Source of the DNA: an uncultured Bacteroidota bacterium
Lineage (GTDB): Bacteria; Bacteroidota; Bacteroidia; Chitinophagales; Chitinophagaceae
Assembly: GCA_903916555.1 (NCBI GenBank)
Contig: CAIWXG010000039.1
Location: forward strand, 1 to 33,326
Length of the DNA stretch: 33,326 nucleotides
Direction: 5' to 3'
The notes under the pieces are model-generated. The model was given only the letters and a program-made list of their open reading frames with translations. It had not been told where the DNA came from and did no database searches. Shown one piece after another: positions 21,146 to 31,421 of this stretch (the stretch's first letter is position 1; the number at the start of each line of letters is the position of its first letter). Position numbers and translations under genes: made by a program.

Positions 21146-22069
21146 ATGAACAAAAATAATTTAATTATTACATTTTTAATTGTTCCGTTTTTATTCTTAA
21201 GTTTTAATTTAACAGGTAAGGAAAAAGTAAAAAATAAAGCAAAAAAAACAACTCCAACTTCAAATACCCAAATACAAAAAAACGAAAAGTCCAATAGCGA
21301 TATAAGAAATAAAATAATACCGGCAACAAAATATAAACTTTTTGCTACCCCTTACGATGGATGGAAGCCGAAACCACATTTTCTGTTTTTTTATCCTTGG
21401 TCTAATTTTACTTTCTATGGCATAAATAATAATCAACCTTCCAATTTTCCGAATGAAACCGTTGGTAACCCTAATATAAATTATGATAACACAAAATATG
21501 AAGAAACACCATTTGAAGGAAATATAATTTATAATAAGGATACAATTTGGGGTAATATAATGTTTAATAGAAAAACAATAAATATAGAATATAATATAGA
21601 CTGCCCGGTGGAAAAAAATTACCAATACAATATTAAAAATGAAAGTTTAAAAATGATAAATAGAAAAACAATAAATATAGAATACAATATAGACTCCCTG
21701 GTAAGCAAAAATTGCGAATACAATATAAAAAACGAAAGTTTAAAAACAATAACTGTACGCAATCTTGATGAAAAACAAATGACACTTACCCGATTGAATG
21801 AAAATAAAAAAAGATTATGGAGGCTTTTGCATGTAGGTAAAGTAACTTTTTATGACAATGGTAAAAATTTTATATATTATCCGTATGAAATTGATAAAAA
21901 CTATCTGAAAATTGTATATGGCACACAAATAAAGACAATACATACCCCATTTAAAAAGCATAATAAAAAGAAATTAATAAATATTATAAATAATGTTTAT
22001 AGTTTAGAAATAAAACCAAACGACTATTCTTGGGATGAATTGTTTATATATATTGATAAATTAGATTAA
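21146..22069 (+). CDS. Hypothetical secreted protein with internal tandem duplication
   Basis: N-terminal hydrophobic signal; NRKTINIEYNID...YNIKNESLK present twice. Confidence 0.75.
   Translation: MNKNNLIITFLIVPFLFLSFNLTGKEKVKNKAKKTTPTSNTQIQKNEKSNSDIRNKIIPATKYKLFATPYDGWKPKPHFLFFYPWSNFTFYGINNNQPSNFPNETVGNPNINYDNTKYEETPFEGNIIYNKDTIWGNIMFNRKTINIEYNIDCPVEKNYQYNIKNESLKMINRKTINIEYNIDSLVSKNCEYNIKNESLKTITVRNLDEKQMTLTRLNENKKRLWRLLHVGKVTFYDNGKNFIYYPYEIDKNYLKIVYGTQIKTIHTPFKKHNKKKLINIINNVYSLEIKPNDYSWDELFIYIDKLD
21566..21751 (+). repeat. Two tandem copies of a 93-bp (31-codon) in-frame repeat
   Basis: AATAGAAAAACAATAAATATAGAAT begins at 21566 and again at 21659. Confidence 0.9.
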
Positions 22070-22175
22070 AATTGAGAATATTTCCATTCTTTTATTTTTT
22101 ACTACTATTTTTTACTAAAATAATTTGAAAATAAAATTGTATTTTGCCAAACCATTTAGATACTATTAATTACAA

Positions 22176-22802
22176 ATGAAAATCATCGTTATATCAGACA
22201 CGCATGGCAAGCATAGAAAGCTAAATATGCCCAAAGGTGATATGCTAATACATGCAGGTGATGTTTCGATGGAAGGCAAAACAGAAGAAGTAATCGATTT
22301 TTTAAATTGGTTTGGAGAACTTCAATATAAATATAAAATTATGATTGCCGGTAATCATGATTATTTCTTTGAAAAAATAAACAAACAAGAATTAGATACT
22401 ATCATACCACAATCTGTTATATATCTAAATGATAGTGGAGTTACAATTGAAGGTATTAATATATGGGGTTCGCCGGTAACACTTTGGTACGAAAACTGGG
22501 CTTTTAATAGACATCCCGGTAAGGATATTAGCAAACATTGGGAATTAATACCTAAAAACACAAACTTACTTATTACACATAGCCCCGTATTTGGTATATT
22601 AGATAAACTTGAAATGGGTTTGCAGATTGGTTGTCCTAATTTATTAAAAAAAGTAAATGAAGTAATACCAAGACTTCATATTTTTGGGCATGTACATGAA
22701 GCTTATGGTGTAATAGAATCGAAGGATACTACTTTTATTAATGCTTCTTCTTTAAATAGTAAGTATGAATTGCAAAATAAGCCAATAGAATTTATTTGGT
22801 AA
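22176..22802 (+). CDS. Calcineurin-like metallophosphoesterase
   Basis: VISDTHGKH, HAGDVSMEG, IAGNHDYFF, LLITHSP, IFGHVHEAYG. Confidence 0.95.
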   Translation: MKIIVISDTHGKHRKLNMPKGDMLIHAGDVSMEGKTEEVIDFLNWFGELQYKYKIMIAGNHDYFFEKINKQELDTIIPQSVIYLNDSGVTIEGINIWGSPVTLWYENWAFNRHPGKDISKHWELIPKNTNLLITHSPVFGILDKLEMGLQIGCPNLLKKVNEVIPRLHIFGHVHEAYGVIESKDTTFINASSLNSKYELQNKPIEFIW

Positions 22803-22815
22803 TTTCAACCTTATT

Positions 22816-23274
22816 TTATATAAATTTCATATTAGTAGCAACTAAATTACTATTACCCCTTGCTAATAATTTATCTGCATTGTTATAAACAAAGCATTCT
22901 ACATTTATTATTTTCTTGCCTGTCCTTAATACATTCGCAATAGCTTTTAGTTTTTCTCCTTCTTTTATAGCATATAAAAAATCTACATTTAGGCTTAATG
23001 TGGTATAATGTTGTTCGGATTCTAAGCTATAAACTGCCCATCCAATTGTTTCATCTATCACCATACTCATCATACCGCCATGTATATTGCCATAAGGGTT
23101 TGTCATTTCTTTTATTACTGTTAAACTAAGTATAGCCTTTCCGTGTTCTATTTGTTCTAAGGTAAACCCCAGCCAATTGCCTGCGGATGATTTGGAATTT
23201 TCTACTTTTTTCCCTTCAAAAGTCTGCTTAATTTCTATTAAAGTATGCCTATTTGTATTTTTTTTATCACCCAT
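22816..23274 (-). CDS. PaaI-like hotdog-fold thioesterase
   Basis: MTNPYGNIHGGMMSMVIDETIGWAVYSL; TTLSLNVDFLYAIKEGEKLKAIANVLRTGKKI. Confidence 0.92.
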   Translation of the reverse strand: MGDKKNTNRHTLIEIKQTFEGKKVENSKSSAGNWLGFTLEQIEHGKAILSLTVIKEMTNPYGNIHGGMMSMVIDETIGWAVYSLESEQHYTTLSLNVDFLYAIKEGEKLKAIANVLRTGKKIINVECFVYNNADKLLARGNSNLVATNMKFI

Positions 23275-23426
23275 TTGGTTCTATTCTAAGCAAAATTACA
23301 ATTATAAACTGCTGCTTAAACATTTCTAAAAGTTAATAGTCTAATTGCACTATTGATTCTACCTATGACCAAAAAATTGACAATAAAATAATCTTACAAA
23401 AATATTTACCTTTAAAAAAAAATTCA

Positions 23427-26033
23427 ATGACAAAACGTCTCCTTTTTTCAGCTTGTATCATTTTGTGTACTGCTTTAATTTCAACAGCACAAACCATAAG
23501 CAAAGGCAGAGAAACAAAAAAAACGGTTGTAAATGTTTCTGAGCTAAGTAACTATTATAAAGAACATCCTGAAAATATAGTTCGTAAACCTTTGTTTGAT
23601 GAAGATGAACACGAAGAAAGACATCCGGGAATTCCAGACCCTTCTTTAGTACATTATAGAACCAACAATACTACCGAACAGAGAGCTGCTCATAGTGCAT
23701 TATTACCTGCTTCACCTGCACCTAACGATACGTTTGAATCTACACCAAGTAACTTGTCATCTATACCACCGGATACACATGGTGCTGTAGATTCTCAATA
23801 TTGCATTACAGCAATTAATACGGCAGTACATATACAATCAAGAACAGGAGCTACTATTATGAGTTTCGGTATCGATGGTTTTTGGTCTTCCTTACTTACG
23901 GCAGGGCCGGGAGCTTTTGACCCACGTGTGCATTACGACCCTTTTTATAAAAGATGGATTATGGTATGCGATGCCTATGGACAGTCTGCCAATTCACAGA
24001 TAATGATTGCTGTTTCGCAAACAAATGACCCAACCGGACTTTGGAACATGTATGCGGTAACAGTAGATGGTACCGGTGCCTATTGGCTGGATTTCCCTTG
24101 TGTGGGTTTTAATAAAAAATGGATTACAGTTACAGGCAATATGTTTCCTAATTCTACAGGTGGTGGTGGCCCTGCTGTAGTATATGTATTTGATTATGCA
24201 AGTATAATGGCGGGTACGGGTGCGCCCTATACAAAATTTACACAAACAAGTTCTTTTACTATTTGCCCCGCATTAACTTACGATACTACACAAAATAGTA
24301 TGTTTGCTGTTGAAATACACGATAATACTGCAGGTACTCTTAAGCTGTGGAAAATATCTGGGGCTGTAGGGTCTGAGACCATGAGTGTTGTGGGCTATCC
24401 GGGCACATCGCAACATTGGAGGTCTAATGCACCCGGCTATGGCGATTTTACACCACAAGTAGCGTCAACACACAAAATGGATGCCGGCGATGATAGAATA
24501 ACAAGTTGCACCTATAGAAATCATAAGATATGGTGTTCGCATACCGTATTTTTGCCTGCAACAGGTACTGCAAATAGATGCTCGGTTATGTGGTGGCAAG
24601 TAGATACGGCAGCTCACCCATTACAAACCGGCTTAATTGACGACCCTTCGCATACTAAATTTTATGATTATTCTTCTATTGCTGTCAATAGAAATGATGA
24701 TGCTTTAGTAGGTTTTGGTTGCTTCTCTTCTTCGTTGCACCCAAGTGCAGGTTATGCCTTACACATGCATACCGACCCGACAGACTCTATTCGTCCGGTG
24801 GTTATATTCAGACATGGCTTAGCCCCCTACTACGAAACATTTGGCGGAACACTTGATAGATGGGGCGACTATTCTAATACGTGTATAGACCCAAGAAACG
24901 ATTCTGATTTCTGGACGATACAAGAAAGCTCAACCGTTGGTAGCTCGCCTAATTGGGATACTTGGTGGGCTAATGTGCAAATATGTTCTAAACCAAATGA
25001 GCCTGTAATGGCTTATTCTAAAACAAGCATTTGTAGCCGTGATACCGGTAATTATATTATAAACAGTATTCCCGGTGCTACAAGTTATATGTGGTATGTT
25101 ACCGGTACAGGTTGGGGAATAGCCTCCGGTTTATACGATACATCTATTTTGCTTATTGCCGGTACCGGTGTAGCCACTATTACGGTTTTAGCCTATAATT
25201 CTTGTGGCGAAGGTGCTGCCCATACTTTTACAATTTCTCCTTTTACATTCCCGGTTGCACCAACGGTAGCTACCTATTCACCTGCATGTGTAGGGTCTCC
25301 TACAGCCATTTTTACTGTTACTTCTATAGGTGCAAGTTCTTATTCATGGGCTGCTTATGGTACCGGTTGGTCGGGTACAAGTTCTTCAACCTCTTTTACT
25401 GCGGGGGTTGGGACAGGTACGGGTATAATTGTTTGCACACCTTATAATTTCTGTGGTATGGGTACGCCCGATACTTTATTGGTTACACCCGGTATTTATC
25501 CTGTTGCCTCATTTGCCGAAGCCTTGCATTCTACGCTAACAGCAATAAATGATACAATTACCTTTACAGGTACCGTTACGGGTACATGCACCTACAATTG
25601 GAATTTTGGTGGCGGTGCAGGTACGCCGGGTACAGGGGCAGGCCCTCAAATTGTTCATTGGTCAATACCGGGTTTAAAAACCATAACCCTAACTGTAGAT
25701 AACAATGGCTGCACGTCTAATGTTTATACCGATACAGTGTTAGTGTTACAAAATACAGGAGTATCAATTATAAATAACGATAATTCTGAAATTACAATTT
25801 TACCTAACCCTAATGACGGTATCTTTCAATTGAATTTTGGCAAAGAATTAAATACAACTATTGAGGTTAAATTAATTGATTTACAAGGCAATACCGTTTA
25901 CAGTAATAAATTTAATGGTACAATTAATCAAAAAATTGCAGTAAATACCGTGCATGTAGCTACCGGCATATATACATTACTAATTATTGCAGACGAAAAG
26001 ACAGTAACTAAGAAGATAGATATAATAAAGTAA
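23427..26033 (+). CDS. Secreted multidomain protein with PKD-like domains and T9SS type A sorting domain
   Basis: Signal peptide; TYNWNFGGGAG...TITLTVDNNGC PKD-like; ITILPNPNDGIFQLNFG...VTKKIDIIK sorting signal. Confidence 0.9.
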   Translation: MTKRLLFSACIILCTALISTAQTISKGRETKKTVVNVSELSNYYKEHPENIVRKPLFDEDEHEERHPGIPDPSLVHYRTNNTTEQRAAHSALLPASPAPNDTFESTPSNLSSIPPDTHGAVDSQYCITAINTAVHIQSRTGATIMSFGIDGFWSSLLTAGPGAFDPRVHYDPFYKRWIMVCDAYGQSANSQIMIAVSQTNDPTGLWNMYAVTVDGTGAYWLDFPCVGFNKKWITVTGNMFPNSTGGGGPAVVYVFDYASIMAGTGAPYTKFTQTSSFTICPALTYDTTQNSMFAVEIHDNTAGTLKLWKISGAVGSETMSVVGYPGTSQHWRSNAPGYGDFTPQVASTHKMDAGDDRITSCTYRNHKIWCSHTVFLPATGTANRCSVMWWQVDTAAHPLQTGLIDDPSHTKFYDYSSIAVNRNDDALVGFGCFSSSLHPSAGYALHMHTDPTDSIRPVVIFRHGLAPYYETFGGTLDRWGDYSNTCIDPRNDSDFWTIQESSTVGSSPNWDTWWANVQICSKPNEPVMAYSKTSICSRDTGNYIINSIPGATSYMWYVTGTGWGIASGLYDTSILLIAGTGVATITVLAYNSCGEGAAHTFTISPFTFPVAPTVATYSPACVGSPTAIFTVTSIGASSYSWAAYGTGWSGTSSSTSFTAGVGTGTGIIVCTPYNFCGMGTPDTLLVTPGIYPVASFAEALHSTLTAINDTITFTGTVTGTCTYNWNFGGGAGTPGTGAGPQIVHWSIPGLKTITLTVDNNGCTSNVYTDTVLVLQNTGVSIINNDNSEITILPNPNDGIFQLNFGKELNTTIEVKLIDLQGNTVYSNKFNGTINQKIAVNTVHVATGIYTLLIIADEKTVTKKIDIIK

Positions 26034-26087
26034 AATACATAAAAGCGGATTAGAAGCAAAAATAGATTATAGATTTCCAAGAGTAGT

Positions 26088-26133
26088 AACCCATTAGTTC
26101 TTTGAATAGTTATTTTCAAAGAACTAATGGGTT
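26088..26133. terminator. Perfect 19-bp inverted repeat downstream of the T9SS gene
   Basis: AACCCATTAGTTCTTTGAA (26088-26106) / TTCAAAGAACTAATGGGTT (26115-26133). Confidence 0.75.
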
Positions 26134-26144
26134 GCTAAATTTAC

Positions 26145-26319
26145 GCCTTTGTTGGGTGTTTTCACCAACAAATAGTTTGTTCTTCAGATGACGAAAACAA
26201 TCCATTTTAACTACTATACGTTTTTGTTGATAAAAATACAAACAAAGACACTGTAAAGATAAAAAAATTAGCTATCTTGGGTTATGATGTTGTTTGTCGG
26301 TGAAAACACCGACAAAGGC
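26145..26319. repeat. Cassette-bounding structured repeat, copy A (175 bp)
   Basis: GCCTTTGTTGGGTGTTTTCACCAACAAATAG...GTCGGTGAAAACACCGACAAAGGC; roughly 92% identical to copy B by eye. Confidence 0.92.
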
Positions 26320-26337
26320 ACAAACGTAAACCCTTTT

Positions 26338-26664
26338 TTACGGAATATCTTTCAAAAGTAATTGAATTTCTATGTCTGAAATATTTTCCTTTTCATTTTT
26401 ATCAAATATAGTTAGCAGATAAACAGCATCTTCAGTGATTTTAAAACAAGTAATAACTCTTGCACCTCCCGATTTACCTTTGCCTTTTGAGGCAATGGCT
26501 AAACGAATTTTAAAACAATTGTTGCCGAGCCCGATACCTTGCATTGGATTTTGTTTTAATCCATTAACCATTTCAATATATTCATTTTTTAGCGACTGGT
26601 ACTTTTTCACTAAATGTTTTAATTCTTTTTCGAATTTAGGGATTGATATTACTTTATAGCTCAT
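26338..26664 (-). CDS. RelE/ParE family toxin
   Basis: IPKFEKELKHLVKKY, KSGGARVITCFKI, VYLLTIFDKNEKENISDIE. Confidence 0.9.
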   Translation of the reverse strand: MSYKVISIPKFEKELKHLVKKYQSLKNEYIEMVNGLKQNPMQGIGLGNNCFKIRLAIASKGKGKSGGARVITCFKITEDAVYLLTIFDKNEKENISDIEIQLLLKDIP

Positions 26665-26860
26665 TAAATAAATCTTCGGCGTTACGACCTTTTAATTTCC
26701 CTACATTTATTAATTTCATTTCCTCAACTGCTTCTTTTATATCTTCTAAAACCTTTGCTTTATAATCGCTGAGGGGTTTAGCTTTTACAAAAGAGAAATT
26801 TTTTAGTAATTCAATAAAAAAGTCGGCTTTACTATCTTTTACATCCAATAATATTTTCAT
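26654..26860 (-). CDS. Cognate antitoxin (68 aa) of the RelE/ParE toxin
   Basis: Immediately upstream of, and overlapping, the toxin; MKILLDVKDSKADFFIELLKNFSFVKAKPLSDYKAKVLEDIKEAVEEMKLI. Confidence 0.85.
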   Translation of the reverse strand: MKILLDVKDSKADFFIELLKNFSFVKAKPLSDYKAKVLEDIKEAVEEMKLINVGKLKGRNAEDLFNEL

Positions 26861-26964
26861 GTATCTGTCTTTTAAAGAAATATAAAGTGCAAAAATATAA
26901 TGAATATAAACATAAAAAAGGCAATAGAACTATTTGTCAATATTCTATCTTTTATAGCTTTTAC

Positions 26965-27140
26965 GCCTTTGTTGGGTGTTTATACCAACAAATAGTTTGT
27001 TCTTCCGATGACGAATACACTCCATTTTAAGTACTATAAGTTTTTGTTGATAAAAATACAAACAAAGACATTCTAAAGATAAAAAAACTTAGCTATCTTG
27101 GATTATGATGTTGTTTGTGGGTGAAAACACCAACGAAGGC
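26965..27140. repeat. Cassette-bounding structured repeat, copy B (176 bp)
   Basis: GCCTTTGTTGGGTGTTTATACCAACAAATAG...GTGGGTGAAAACACCAACGAAGGC. Confidence 0.92.
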
Positions 27141-27164
27141 ACAACGGAAGATTAAATTAAAGAA

Positions 27165-27743
27165 ATGAAAACATTGGGTGAAATTATTTTTAATATACCC
27201 AATTTTTTCGTAATTTTGGGTGTGTTTAATAAAGGTCGTCTATCAGATTTCATTATAGATAAACTTACTAATTCTATAGAAAATGTTGAAACTGGAGAGG
27301 TTTTTGATACTGATATTAATAAGCTTACTACTGCAACATTAAAATTAATTGTAAAGTCGCAATGGCAATTTGATTGGAGAAAAGAAATTAATGATACTAC
27401 AAAATTAGTGTATAAGCTTTCAACAACTAAAAATGATAAAATAATACAAGGACTTGTAAGTATTGAAGATAAAGAAGACCACATTTTTCTTCACCTTGTA
27501 GAAAGTGCAAAATTCAATAAGGGAAAAGAAAAAGTTTATTTGGGAGTACCCGGTAATTTGGTAGCCTTCGCATGCCAACAATCCATTGAGAAAGGCTATA
27601 ATGGATTCGTAGCTTTTGATGCAAAAACAATTCTGATTGAACATTATAAGGCATCGCTTGGGGCAATACACATGGGTGGCAAAAGAATGTATATTAATGA
27701 TAAGGGTGCAAACTTGCTTATAGAAAAGTATTTTAAACAATAG
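27165..27743 (+). CDS. GNAT-like acetyltransferase-fold protein
   Basis: YLGVPGNLVAFACQQSIEKGYNGFVAFDAKTILIEHYKASLGAIHMGGKRMYI resembles the GNAT acetyl-CoA region and C-terminal 'hYxxhGF'-like segment. Confidence 0.65.
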   Translation: MKTLGEIIFNIPNFFVILGVFNKGRLSDFIIDKLTNSIENVETGEVFDTDINKLTTATLKLIVKSQWQFDWRKEINDTTKLVYKLSTTKNDKIIQGLVSIEDKEDHIFLHLVESAKFNKGKEKVYLGVPGNLVAFACQQSIEKGYNGFVAFDAKTILIEHYKASLGAIHMGGKRMYINDKGANLLIEKYFKQ

Positions 27744-27751
27744 AAAATAAT

Positions 27752-27958
27752 ATGAAGCTAATTAAAGAGCCGGTTGATGTTGATTTTATAATAGAATCGA
27801 AACCTTGGTCGGAAAGCGAGGTAAATGAACTGAGACTAATAATGAGAAAAACGAAGGCTGATGCTACAAAGAAAATAAAAAAAAAAACAAAAGAAAACAA
27901 ACTCAGTGCTGCCCATAGTCAAAATGTTTCAGTAAATACTGCAAGGCAATTATTATAG
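27752..27958 (+). CDS. Small charged protein (68 aa), putative partner of the GNAT-like protein
   Basis: Starts 9 nt after the upstream stop; MKLIKEPVDVDFIIESKPWSESEVNELRLIMRKTKADATKKIKKK; stop lies 10 bp before repeat copy C. Confidence 0.65.
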   Translation: MKLIKEPVDVDFIIESKPWSESEVNELRLIMRKTKADATKKIKKKTKENKLSAAHSQNVSVNTARQLL

Positions 27959-27967
27959 GATTGCTTA

Positions 27968-28127
27968 GCCTTTGTTGAATAGTTTGTACTTCCGATGACG
28001 AATACAATCCATTTTAACTACTATAAGTTTTTGTTGATGAAAACACCAACAAAGACATTGTAAAGATAAAAAAACTTAGCTATCTTGGATTATGATGTTG
28101 TTTGTGGGTGGAAACACCAACGAAGGC
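27968..28127. repeat. Cassette-bounding structured repeat, copy C (160 bp; left hairpin deleted)
   Basis: GCCTTTGTTGAATAGTTTGTACTTCCGATGACG...GTGGGTGGAAACACCAACGAAGGC. Confidence 0.9.
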
Positions 28128-28300
28128 ACAAAAAGGTAAATGATAAAAAGAATAAAGGTTTAACGGATGCAGAATTGATTGCTAAGTATGGGAATGAAAC
28201 ACCCCAAAAATCTTTTAAAGAAATGATTACTGTCCTTTTGTCTGTTAGGAATTTAAAAGTTCCTACAAGGAATAAAAGGCACTTATCTATAAATGAGTGA
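28085..28300 (+). pseudogene. Possible remnant of a third small cassette ORF; the track ORF begins with TTG inside repeat C
   Basis: VNDKKNKGLTDAELIAKYGNETPQKSFKEMITVLL resembles a small antitoxin-like protein but has no in-frame ATG near its expected start. Confidence 0.4.
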
Positions 28301-28618
28301 TTATTTAAATATAGCCTAAATAGCTATTATTAGGTAATTATCATATTTATTATTTATCTTGTGCATTCTGCTATGTCATTACCATATTTTATAGCCTTAC
28401 TTGCCAAAAGATGCATTTGTTTTTAATATTCTTAGCTGCGTTTCTTTTCATTTTGCATTAGTTCAATGAATATGTTCATAGAACGGTTTTATTTATACTT
28501 CCTGATTCCCTGCGGAAAATCAGGAAGAACGGATGTGTATGGTAGTATTTAAGTTATATAAAATAAATACATTGATAATAAATCAGTATTTTTGTCTATT
28601 TTTCAGACTAATTAAAAT

Positions 28619-29620
28619 ATGAAATATCTTTTTATTGTTTTCCAATTATTGTTGTTCCATTCTGTTTTTTCTCAAGTCAAAGAACAAGCTGAAGTAGATA
28701 GAAATTCAGCATTAATTGGATATTATAACTTAGATGAATTACACAATAAACTGGCAATAAAATCTTATTCCGATTCAGAAAAAGTAAGGTCATTTTATTA
28801 TTGGATAACCCAACACATAAGTTATGATGTATCAGAATTTCATTGGTCAGGATATGTTGCACCAAGACATTTACAATCAACAGATAGCTTAGAAAGGGTA
28901 AAAGTACATTTAAATGATTATGGGGCTTATGTTCTTAAAAGAAAGAAGGGAGTTTGTGAAGGCTACGCAACTATTTTCAAGCTGTTGTGCGACCGTTCTA
29001 AAATTGAGTGTGTTATAATACATGGGTGCGGAAAAACAGATGTAAGTTCTATTGGACAATCGCTAACAGAAAATCACGCATGGAATGCAGTTAAAATTAA
29101 AGGGAAATGGCTATTGATAGACGTTTGCTGGGCAAGTGGCTATTGCGACAATATGGTAACCAAGTTTACAAAACAACTAAATGAAAATTATTACCTTACA
29201 CCACCGGATAGGCTAATATATGACCATTATCCTACAGATACTCAATGGACATTGTTGGTAATACCTCCTTCAAAAAAAGAATTCGAGAATTTTCCTGTTC
29301 TTTTTTCTAGAAAAAACAAAGTCAAAATTGATTCATCTAGCCTAAATGGAAATGTAATTGCACATTTAGGCGATACCTTAATACTAAAAGTAGAGATTAT
29401 ATCAGAAACCATTACTCAAGGCAATTATATTCCATGTATTGATGTGTATGATGAACAAGGTGAAATGCTTCCACGTTCAACTAATTCTACAAATCAGACT
29501 TTCAATAAAGACGGAAATAAACTTACTTATACTTATTGCATTGGGTCTAAAAATAGTTGCCGGCTTTATTTGGCTTATGGTTCAGAATACGTTGCAGCAT
29601 ATAGACTACAGGTTAAATAA
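28619..29620 (+). CDS. Secreted transglutaminase-like (cysteine protease fold) protein
   Basis: Signal peptide; KKGVCEGYATIFKLLCDR, NHAWNAVKIKGKWLLIDVCWASG (Cys-His-Asp). Confidence 0.9.
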   Translation: MKYLFIVFQLLLFHSVFSQVKEQAEVDRNSALIGYYNLDELHNKLAIKSYSDSEKVRSFYYWITQHISYDVSEFHWSGYVAPRHLQSTDSLERVKVHLNDYGAYVLKRKKGVCEGYATIFKLLCDRSKIECVIIHGCGKTDVSSIGQSLTENHAWNAVKIKGKWLLIDVCWASGYCDNMVTKFTKQLNENYYLTPPDRLIYDHYPTDTQWTLLVIPPSKKEFENFPVLFSRKNKVKIDSSSLNGNVIAHLGDTLILKVEIISETITQGNYIPCIDVYDEQGEMLPRSTNSTNQTFNKDGNKLTYTYCIGSKNSCRLYLAYGSEYVAAYRLQVK

Positions 29621-29641
29621 GTATCACTAATTGCTACTACA

Positions 29642-29674
29642 AACTAAAACCCACTACTACAGCGGGCTTTAGTT
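29642..29674 (+). terminator. Imperfect hairpin downstream of the transglutaminase-like gene
   Basis: AACTAAAACCCACT-ACTAC-AGCGGGCTTTAGTT, two mismatches. Confidence 0.55.
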
Positions 29675-29731
29675 AAAATTATATGGAACGATTGCTGAGA
29701 TTTAAATTTTATATTGAAAACCCGTAAAAGT

Positions 29732-31195
29732 TTAATAATTATTTTTTGGTATTCGTTTTAAAGTCTCTAATAAATAGCTCCAGAATTTTTGCACAGAGGA
29801 TATTTGTACGCATTCGTCCGGTGAATGAGGCCCATTAATATTGGGACCAAAAGAAATCATTTGCACATCAGGATAATTAGTACCCAAGATACCACATTCA
29901 AGACCGGCATGTACTGCATTTACATGAGCGGATTCGTGAAATAATTCCATATAAAGCTCAGACATGATTTTTACAATTGGAGCATCAGTTCTTGGCTGCC
30001 AGCCTGGGTAAGAACCGCTCAAATTCACGTTTGCATCCATCAATTCAAAAGTACTGGTAATGGCACTTGCTAAGTCTTGTTTTTCACTATCAACAGAGCT
30101 ACGTGTTAGGCATTGCATATTAAAAGTACCTGCTGCAACCAAAATACGAGCCAAATTATTAGAACTTTGCACCAGTCCGTTAATTTCAGGACTCATGCGG
30201 TAAATACCATTAGGGCAGGCATAAACGGCACGTAATAATTTTTGTTGAAACGCTGTCTCCATTACATTTTCAGGTGTCGGAGCTCTATCAATCGTTATAA
30301 TAAGTTTAGGGTCTGTAACTTTATATTCGTCTTTTAAAATAGTGGCAAGTGTTATGAAGGTTTCCTGCATCTTTGCTGCTTTTGTATCATCTGCTACAAT
30401 CACTGCCACCGACTCTCGAGGTATGGCATTGCGTAGGCTGCCACCATTAATACTCGCAATGTTAATGCTATATTCATTGGTAAGATTCAACAATATTCGA
30501 TTCATTATTTTGTTGGCATTACCCCTACCCAAATGAATTTCTGCACCTGAATGCCCACCTGTAAGACCCTTTACCGATATGGTGAAAGCAGACCCATTTC
30601 CAGATTTTACTTGACTATAGTTACCTGTTGCTGTAATATCAATGCCGCCGGCACAGCCTATAGTAAGTTCATTATCTGCTTCTGTATCTAAATTCAGTAA
30701 TATTTTACCTGCCAGTAAGCCGCCTTTTAAAGATAATGCTCCGGTCATTCCTGTTTCTTCATCAATGGTAAACAGAGCTTCAATTGCAGGATGCGGAATA
30801 TCTTTGGCTGCTAATAAAGACATAATAGACGCAACACCAATCCCATTGTCGGCACCAAGAGTAGTTCCCTTTGCTTTAACCCAGTCGCCGTCAACAAACA
30901 TCTCAATTCCTTGTATGTCAAAGTTGAAGTTTGTATCACTATTTTTCTGGTGTACCATATCCAGGTGGCTTTGCAGCACCACTGTTTGGCGTTCTTCCAT
31001 ACCGCTTGTAGCAGGTTTTTTAATAATTACGTTTCCTACCGCATCTACAGAAGTTTCTAATTTCAATCCTTCCCCAAAAGCCTTCATAAAAGCGATTACT
31101 CTTTCTTCTTGCTTGGATGGTCTAGGTACTGCATTCAAATCTGCAAAATGGTTCCATAAAACCATTGGTTCTAACAATCTTATTTGTTTGTTCAT
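29732..31195 (-). CDS. pepD: Aminoacyl-histidine dipeptidase / cytosol nonspecific dipeptidase
   Basis: VVLQSHLDMVHQKN, KGTTLGADNGIGVA, TIDEETGMTGA, LTGGHSGAEIHLGRGNA. Confidence 0.96.
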   Translation of the reverse strand: MNKQIRLLEPMVLWNHFADLNAVPRPSKQEERVIAFMKAFGEGLKLETSVDAVGNVIIKKPATSGMEERQTVVLQSHLDMVHQKNSDTNFNFDIQGIEMFVDGDWVKAKGTTLGADNGIGVASIMSLLAAKDIPHPAIEALFTIDEETGMTGALSLKGGLLAGKILLNLDTEADNELTIGCAGGIDITATGNYSQVKSGNGSAFTISVKGLTGGHSGAEIHLGRGNANKIMNRILLNLTNEYSINIASINGGSLRNAIPRESVAVIVADDTKAAKMQETFITLATILKDEYKVTDPKLIITIDRAPTPENVMETAFQQKLLRAVYACPNGIYRMSPEINGLVQSSNNLARILVAAGTFNMQCLTRSSVDSEKQDLASAITSTFELMDANVNLSGSYPGWQPRTDAPIVKIMSELYMELFHESAHVNAVHAGLECGILGTNYPDVQMISFGPNINGPHSPDECVQISSVQKFWSYLLETLKRIPKNNY

Positions 31196-31382
31196 GTTTA
31201 ATGAGTTTCGGGGTCAAAAGTAAGCATTAATAATAAGCCTACATAGTGTGTGCGAAAGGTGGGGGAGTAGTGATTTTGGATTTATAGGTTAGAACATTGT
31301 ATTATAATTAGTAATGCTACCTGAAAACGATTTCATTTACCATAAAATTTGTTGTTATTATGCCCACAACAGAAGAATATAT

Positions 31383-31421
31383 AAAAAACAAAGACTACCC
31401 AATAGATAGTCTTTGTTTTTT
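31383..31421 (-). terminator. Rho-independent-like terminator downstream of pckA
   Basis: Perfect 15-bp AAAAAACAAAGACTA (31383-31397) / TAGTCTTTGTTTTTT (31407-31421), just past the pckA stop. Confidence 0.8.

Follow-up and report, generated by a model that had tools for sequence, protein, structure and literature searches.

The repeats that bracket two compact gene pairs in the window (the whole stretch of 33,326 nucleotides analysed here) are built of hairpins that, in other Bacteroidota, lie on both sides of genes for a particular clade of REP-associated tyrosine transposases (RAYTs). The explanation that we consider likely is that they are composite REP/REPIN-type elements, spread by this RAYT clade, whose direct copies then came to serve as recombination sites at which small modules are moved. 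The comparisons mainly involve three genomes, namely that of the window itself (G000, a 4.1-Mb assembly in 494 contigs), a congener about 91% identical to it (G002, CAIYTT01 contigs), and a Parafilimonas MAG of the same family and another genus (G016, CAIRZB01). G000 and G002 are fragmented MAGs and several of their contigs end in the repeat, so that some of the breaks in synteny described below could be assembly joins.

Structure of the repeat and of the enclosed gene pairs

Repeat A (26145-26322, plus strand) is a composite REP element formed by three hairpins (left, approximately 26145-26171; middle, approximately 26220-26250; right, 26293-26319) with terminal inverted repeats. Repeat B (26965-27143, plus strand) and repeat C (about 27968-28130, plus strand) are composite REP elements in the same direct orientation as A, and the similarity of the three is far above chance. 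Most of the 5' hairpin of repeat C has been lost, leaving it degenerate, so that clear homology starts only at 27978. With pairwise identities of 92% (A/B) and 95% (B/C), the three direct copies seen in the preliminary description to bracket two compact gene pairs are real; on the multiple alignment the corresponding values are 93% and 88%. The ends of the approximately 178-bp repeat read GCC-TTTGTTGGTG-TTTT-CACCAACAAA and its reverse, with the third hairpin between them. When folded as single-stranded DNA, repeat A gave z = -5.6 and the copy on contig C412 of G000 gave z = -7.7, 0 shuffles being equally stable in either case.

The foot of the hairpin is usually GCC, followed by a TTGTTGGTG/CACCAACAA stem. 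The GTAG or GTGG guide tetranucleotide is absent from the foot, where GCC takes its place, and the repeat is therefore classed as a variant and not among the canonical GTAG REPs. G000 also has a second type of hairpin (GCCTTTGCAGGTGTTTTCACCTGCAAA), with the foot and the loop unchanged and the stem altered. At the two free stem positions of the search pattern the bases are complementary in 80 of 94 matches, with six types of pair, and these pairs are compensatory changes. Copy counts, folding and compensatory changes in the stem thus all agree with what defines a REP hairpin, that is, a short hairpin with numerous copies between genes. A scan of the window against Rfam at the gathering thresholds returned no family. 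Just before repeat A, at 26085-26137, there is a near-perfect inverted repeat (AACCCATTAGTTCTTTGAA...TTCAAAGAACTAATGGGTT), 97.5% conserved in G002, which is likely to be the terminator of the gene for an 868-aa protein. One frame of the right hairpin reads FVGENTNKG, and the small ORFs that it seeds (MMLFVGENTNKGTK..., at L051:5734-5874, L055:4807-5007 and L058:5791-5922) are probably spurious and could pollute annotations.

Between repeats A and B, the gene of a 108-aa RelE-family toxin (26338-26664, minus strand) ends with its stop codon approximately 16 bp from repeat A. The match to Pfam RelE (E 6.6e-10) is above the cut-off, in agreement with the RelE/ParE call made earlier. The gene of a 68-aa putative antitoxin (26654-26860, minus strand), which overlaps it, has no significant family match in Pfam or NCBIfam; a RelE toxin gene with an adjacent, overlapping upstream small gene of no named family is the arrangement of a RelE toxin-antitoxin (TA) pair. 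The tail of this first cassette, from the antitoxin gene to repeat B (26895-26959), has a 92% match in G002. Between repeats B and C lie the genes of a 192-aa protein of an unnamed family (27165-27743, plus strand) and of a 68-aa partner (27752-27958, plus strand). The 192-aa protein has no match in Pfam or NCBIfam, and none in the PDB with a 4-sequence profile. Its predicted fold, of low confidence (pLDDT 38), has an order of strands and helices compatible with GNAT, so that the protein may possibly be one, and the GNAT-like label initially attached to it is not borne out by these searches. Plasmids of Paenibacillus and Treponema carry relatives of the protein, the best being 42% identical across 85% of the query, and on three plasmids a small gene lies immediately downstream of these relatives, the alignment between its product and that of the 68-aa gene being weak. 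Since the plasmid relatives also precede a small gene, the pair looks like a real and widespread two-gene module, and the two-gene arrangement first described for this cassette is conserved. Running out of repeat C, an ORF for a small charged protein with no Pfam match (28085-28300, plus strand) is perhaps a truncated small gene, the 5' part of which has been replaced by the repeat. This ORF, the hairpin build of the repeats and a second dispersed repeat at 28385-28533 had escaped the first reading.

Distribution of the hairpin and its linkage to RAYT genes

G000 contains 13 matches to the repeat, about six of them long, and G002 contains 21; two other congeners have no match, and G016 has only the terminal hairpin in common with the approximately 178-bp element. 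A census of the hairpin in 121 relatives gave 22 copies in G000, 47 in G002, 26 in G016, one or two in each of six others and none in the rest, with 0 matches for the reversed pattern used as a control. When one genome per species was scanned for the exact pattern, at least 80 stretches were found, nearly all of those listed coming from Bacteroidota groups with a name, for instance Mucilaginibacter, Rufibacter, Runella, Niabella, Taibaiella and Cytophagales MAGs. The repeat has no match in phage and plasmid collections, and no published description of this Bacteroidota hairpin repeat was found in the literature searched. Another dispersed repeat, of approximately 260 bp, is present in about 20 copies in G000 (L051:4361-4813).

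When the ORFs within 1.5 kb of the hairpin were clustered (80 loci with 33 organism labels, among the matches listed), the only cluster found in more than three organisms was that of the RAYTs, in seven. In a tree of 27 RAYT sequences, for which an independent collection was made with Pfam Y1_Tnp and a profile built from three RAYTs, two clades are resolved with 100/100 support (A, n = 14; B, n = 13). In clade A, 12 of the 14 loci have hairpins with a TTGTTGGTG/CACCAACAA or closely similar stem next to the gene, and in two of them (L117 and L173) the called ORF and the second hairpin overlap; matching hairpins on both sides occur in 0/13 clade-B loci. Five of the 12 hairpin-bearing clade-A loci had been found through the hairpin itself, and the fair count is that of the loci found through the protein, of which 7/9 in clade A and 0/13 in clade B have hairpins on both sides (Fisher p about 2e-4, calculated by hand). 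The hairpins flanking clade-A genes have genome-specific loops (TTGT, TTCTT, TCCCT, TCCT and others) on a constant stem, which fits the coevolution expected of REP elements and RAYTs. On these sequence grounds the hairpin family, which flanks RAYT genes in other Bacteroidota, is assigned to one clade of REP-associated tyrosine (HUH) transposases in this phylum. With the NCBIfam model REP_Tyr_transpos, two clade-A members score just below the cut-off and one clade-B member above it.

A transposase co-occurring with the repeat, as sought in the preliminary description, is therefore found for the repeat family in other genomes, but not in the two that carry the full repeat: a search of G000 with Y1_Tnp gave no match, and in G002 only clade-B RAYTs were found. 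In these fragmented assemblies the transposase presumed to be cognate is absent, lost or not assembled. One of the clade-B RAYTs of G002, on contig C74, was considered as the cognate enzyme and rejected, having a copy of the first hairpin on one side only and other inverted hairpins adjoining the gene. Genomes that bear REPs but have lost the RAYT have been described (PMC3733652), so that a cognate RAYT is a common rather than a strictly defining feature of REP elements. The second dispersed repeat of the window (28385-28533) has more than 30 matches in G002; since a clade-B RAYT gene on contig C224 of that genome (L202) has inverted copies of this repeat on either side, the repeat looks like another REP family.

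Modules and gene order at the repeat copies

Five intervals between neighbouring copies are available, A-B and B-C in the window, one on contig C412 of G000, and one each on contigs C36 and C25 of G002, and in 5/5 the two flanking copies have the same, direct orientation. The copies of such a pair also resemble each other more than random pairs do (mean identity 0.945; permutation p 5e-5, from as few as n = 5 intervals), and this suggests that the gain of a module was accompanied by local duplication or by gene conversion. TA, candidate-defence or TA-like pairs occupy 4/5 of the intervals. Besides the RelE TA pair (A-B) and the 192/68-aa pair (B-C), the contents are a three-gene operon on C412 (L014:5629-8396) with the PADLOC candidates PDC-M29A (E 5e-176) and PDC-M29B, a gene for an NHL-repeat protein plus a fragment on C36, and a PDC-S45-like gene for a trypsin-fold protein plus an unknown gene on C25. 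An unnamed 324-aa gene precedes the PDC-M29A/B genes in the C412 operon and may be a third component.

Of the 50 genes that flank longer copies of the repeat in the two genomes G000 and G002, approximately nine appear TA-like (with Pfam support from RelE, ParE, HicA, NTP_transf_2, HTH_3 and a DUF2281/PIN pair) and the rest mostly ordinary. Compared with the background, the neighbours differ significantly neither in size (p = 0.37) nor in the share of genes under 130 aa (p = 0.11), so that an enrichment for small genes beside the repeats is not seen. In G016, which does have a clade-A RAYT, 0/12 REP loci bracket such a module (as judged by eye), with ordinary genes around them. Most copies are solitary or lie beside ordinary genes and behave like ordinary REPINs. 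The idea of a dedicated cassette system, with 'repeat + two-gene module' as its unit, accordingly gives way to one of REP/REPIN-type elements.

The earlier proposal that the repeats are sites of difference in gene content and order is, by contrast, supported by the comparison of G000 with G002. The left flank of the window (21659-26210) aligns with G002 up to a point approximately 66 bp into repeat A, this first part of the repeat being conserved at the orthologous left flank, and the right flank (28550-31248) matches a different G002 contig. On contig C411 of G000, a ParE pair adjoins a shortened repeat and a tRNA/uridine-phosphorylase region, and in G002 the same pair (92.6%) adjoins a full repeat at a different locus. 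The C411 repeat and its right flank match a third place, on another G002 contig; the alignment breaks at the edge of the repeat, and the shared TA block ends within a member of the second REP family. One TA pair is thus found beside the repeat at two loci. Near pyrD in G002, the 65-bp tail of the first cassette (26895-26959) comes directly after an A-type repeat, the TA genes being absent, and in G000 a 47-bp TA remnant (96%) adjoins pyrD. Tail and remnant together fit a TA pair that was once near pyrD and is now intact only between repeats A and B. On contig C83 of G002 the repeat adjoins an antitoxin-like module; on contig C365 of G000 this module is free of repeats at its edges, which counts against a strict cassette unit. 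Contig C115 of G002, compared as a candidate empty site of the C412 defence module, ends inside the repeat. Gene order also breaks at a place with no visible REP (window, approximately 31248-31387), and the loci compared were chosen for carrying the repeat, the association of breakpoints with it thus being one without an unbiased control.

Alternative explanations and relation to known systems

From these data, the RAYT-linked hairpins would probably have spread in the ancestor of the genus by means of a clade-A RAYT, and the three-hairpin version of approximately 178 bp would then have multiplied in this genus. The dispersed direct copies would most likely act as ordinary sites of homologous recombination, where crossovers, deletions and local duplications may lead to the gain, loss and relocation of small TA or candidate defence modules. 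Both the past mobilisation by a RAYT in this lineage and the role of homologous recombination, rather than of the transposase, in moving the modules are what we infer from the hairpins, the flanking copies and the breaks in synteny. It is unlikely, though worth some weight, that the association is a coincidence, with REPINs and TA or defence modules settling in the same variable gaps and the repeats having no causal role. The neighbouring genes that are not significantly smaller than the background, the ordinary surroundings of the REPs in G016 and the module that is repeat-free in G000 would agree with it, but not the close relationship and invariably direct orientation of flanking copies, nor the alignments that break inside repeat A and at the edge of the C411 repeat. 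Improbable, to a greater degree, is a composite REPIN transposition, in which a direct REP pair and the module between form one long element that is moved single-stranded by a RAYT acting in trans. The outer hairpins do retain the polarity of a single long element, and the relatedness of flanking copies, the TA pair next to the repeat at two loci and the gene content of 4/5 intervals would all be expected; however, no module with both flanking repeats has been seen at two loci, the C365 module has no repeats at its edges, no clade-A RAYT was detected in G000 or G002, and homologous recombination accounts for the same facts. If true, RAYTs moving REP-bracketed TA or defence modules would be an integrase-free route for the spread of defence genes.

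An integron-like array, with the repeats as attC-type sites and the gene pairs as cassettes moved by a tyrosine recombinase, is hardly credible. Chromosomal integrons contain TA cassettes, and in their arrays, too, repeated structured sites separate small modules, some of them TA pairs, so that direct repeats at every boundary, compact modules and TA content speak for it. Against it, no match to integrase_gron (TIGR02249) over the cut-off was found in G000 (a MAG, from which the contig could be missing), weak matches (best, 69 bits versus 265) occurring also in all 14 control genomes; no ordered pair of RYYYAAC and GTTRRRY boxes is present on either strand in nine copies; most copies are dispersed and solitary; the hairpins belong to RAYT loci; and, unlike in integron arrays, the modules consist of one to three genes in either orientation. 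TA 'cassettes' bounded by repeats need not, therefore, imply an integron. Recombination between dispersed direct REPIN copies, the explanation preferred here, would offer a concrete route for the exchange of TA and candidate defence modules within a genome.

The closest known systems are the REPtrons, composed of REP, BIME or REPIN elements and RAYT (TnpA_REP) transposases (PMC6006769, PMC3733652), in which there are likewise dispersed short intergenic hairpins with a conserved foot, often in inverted pairs, flanking the RAYT gene and varying in stem and loop between genomes. The elements described here differ from classical REPs in the GCC foot in place of GT[AG]G, in the unit, which in this genus is the three-hairpin element of approximately 178 bp, and in occurring in genomes with no detected cognate RAYT and sometimes as direct pairs around accessory modules. 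Bacteroidetes TnpA_REP of subclass 2.6 (RAYT group 5) have been described with atypical, non-GTAG structures on their flanks, further copies of which occur at other places in the genome (PMC6006769). Clade A resembles this subclass as a group of Bacteroidota RAYTs with non-GTAG flanking structures and an NH[LIV]H motif, but most of its members have WE rather than the WQ given for subclass 2.6, and Y[IV]HxNP, which is looser than YIH[QN]NP; clade B is the closer fit. With clade A, a widespread Bacteroidota hairpin repeat is tied to a specific RAYT clade by conservation of the stem and variation of the loop.

Two sets of tandem units are present elsewhere in the window. The gene of a 906-aa protein contains six tandem units of 156-168 bp (1951-2940) encoding NHL-like repeats with the motif GDGGxATAA, and that of a 307-aa protein contains two tandem units of 93 bp, 86% alike (21559-21744), which are a recent in-frame duplication.
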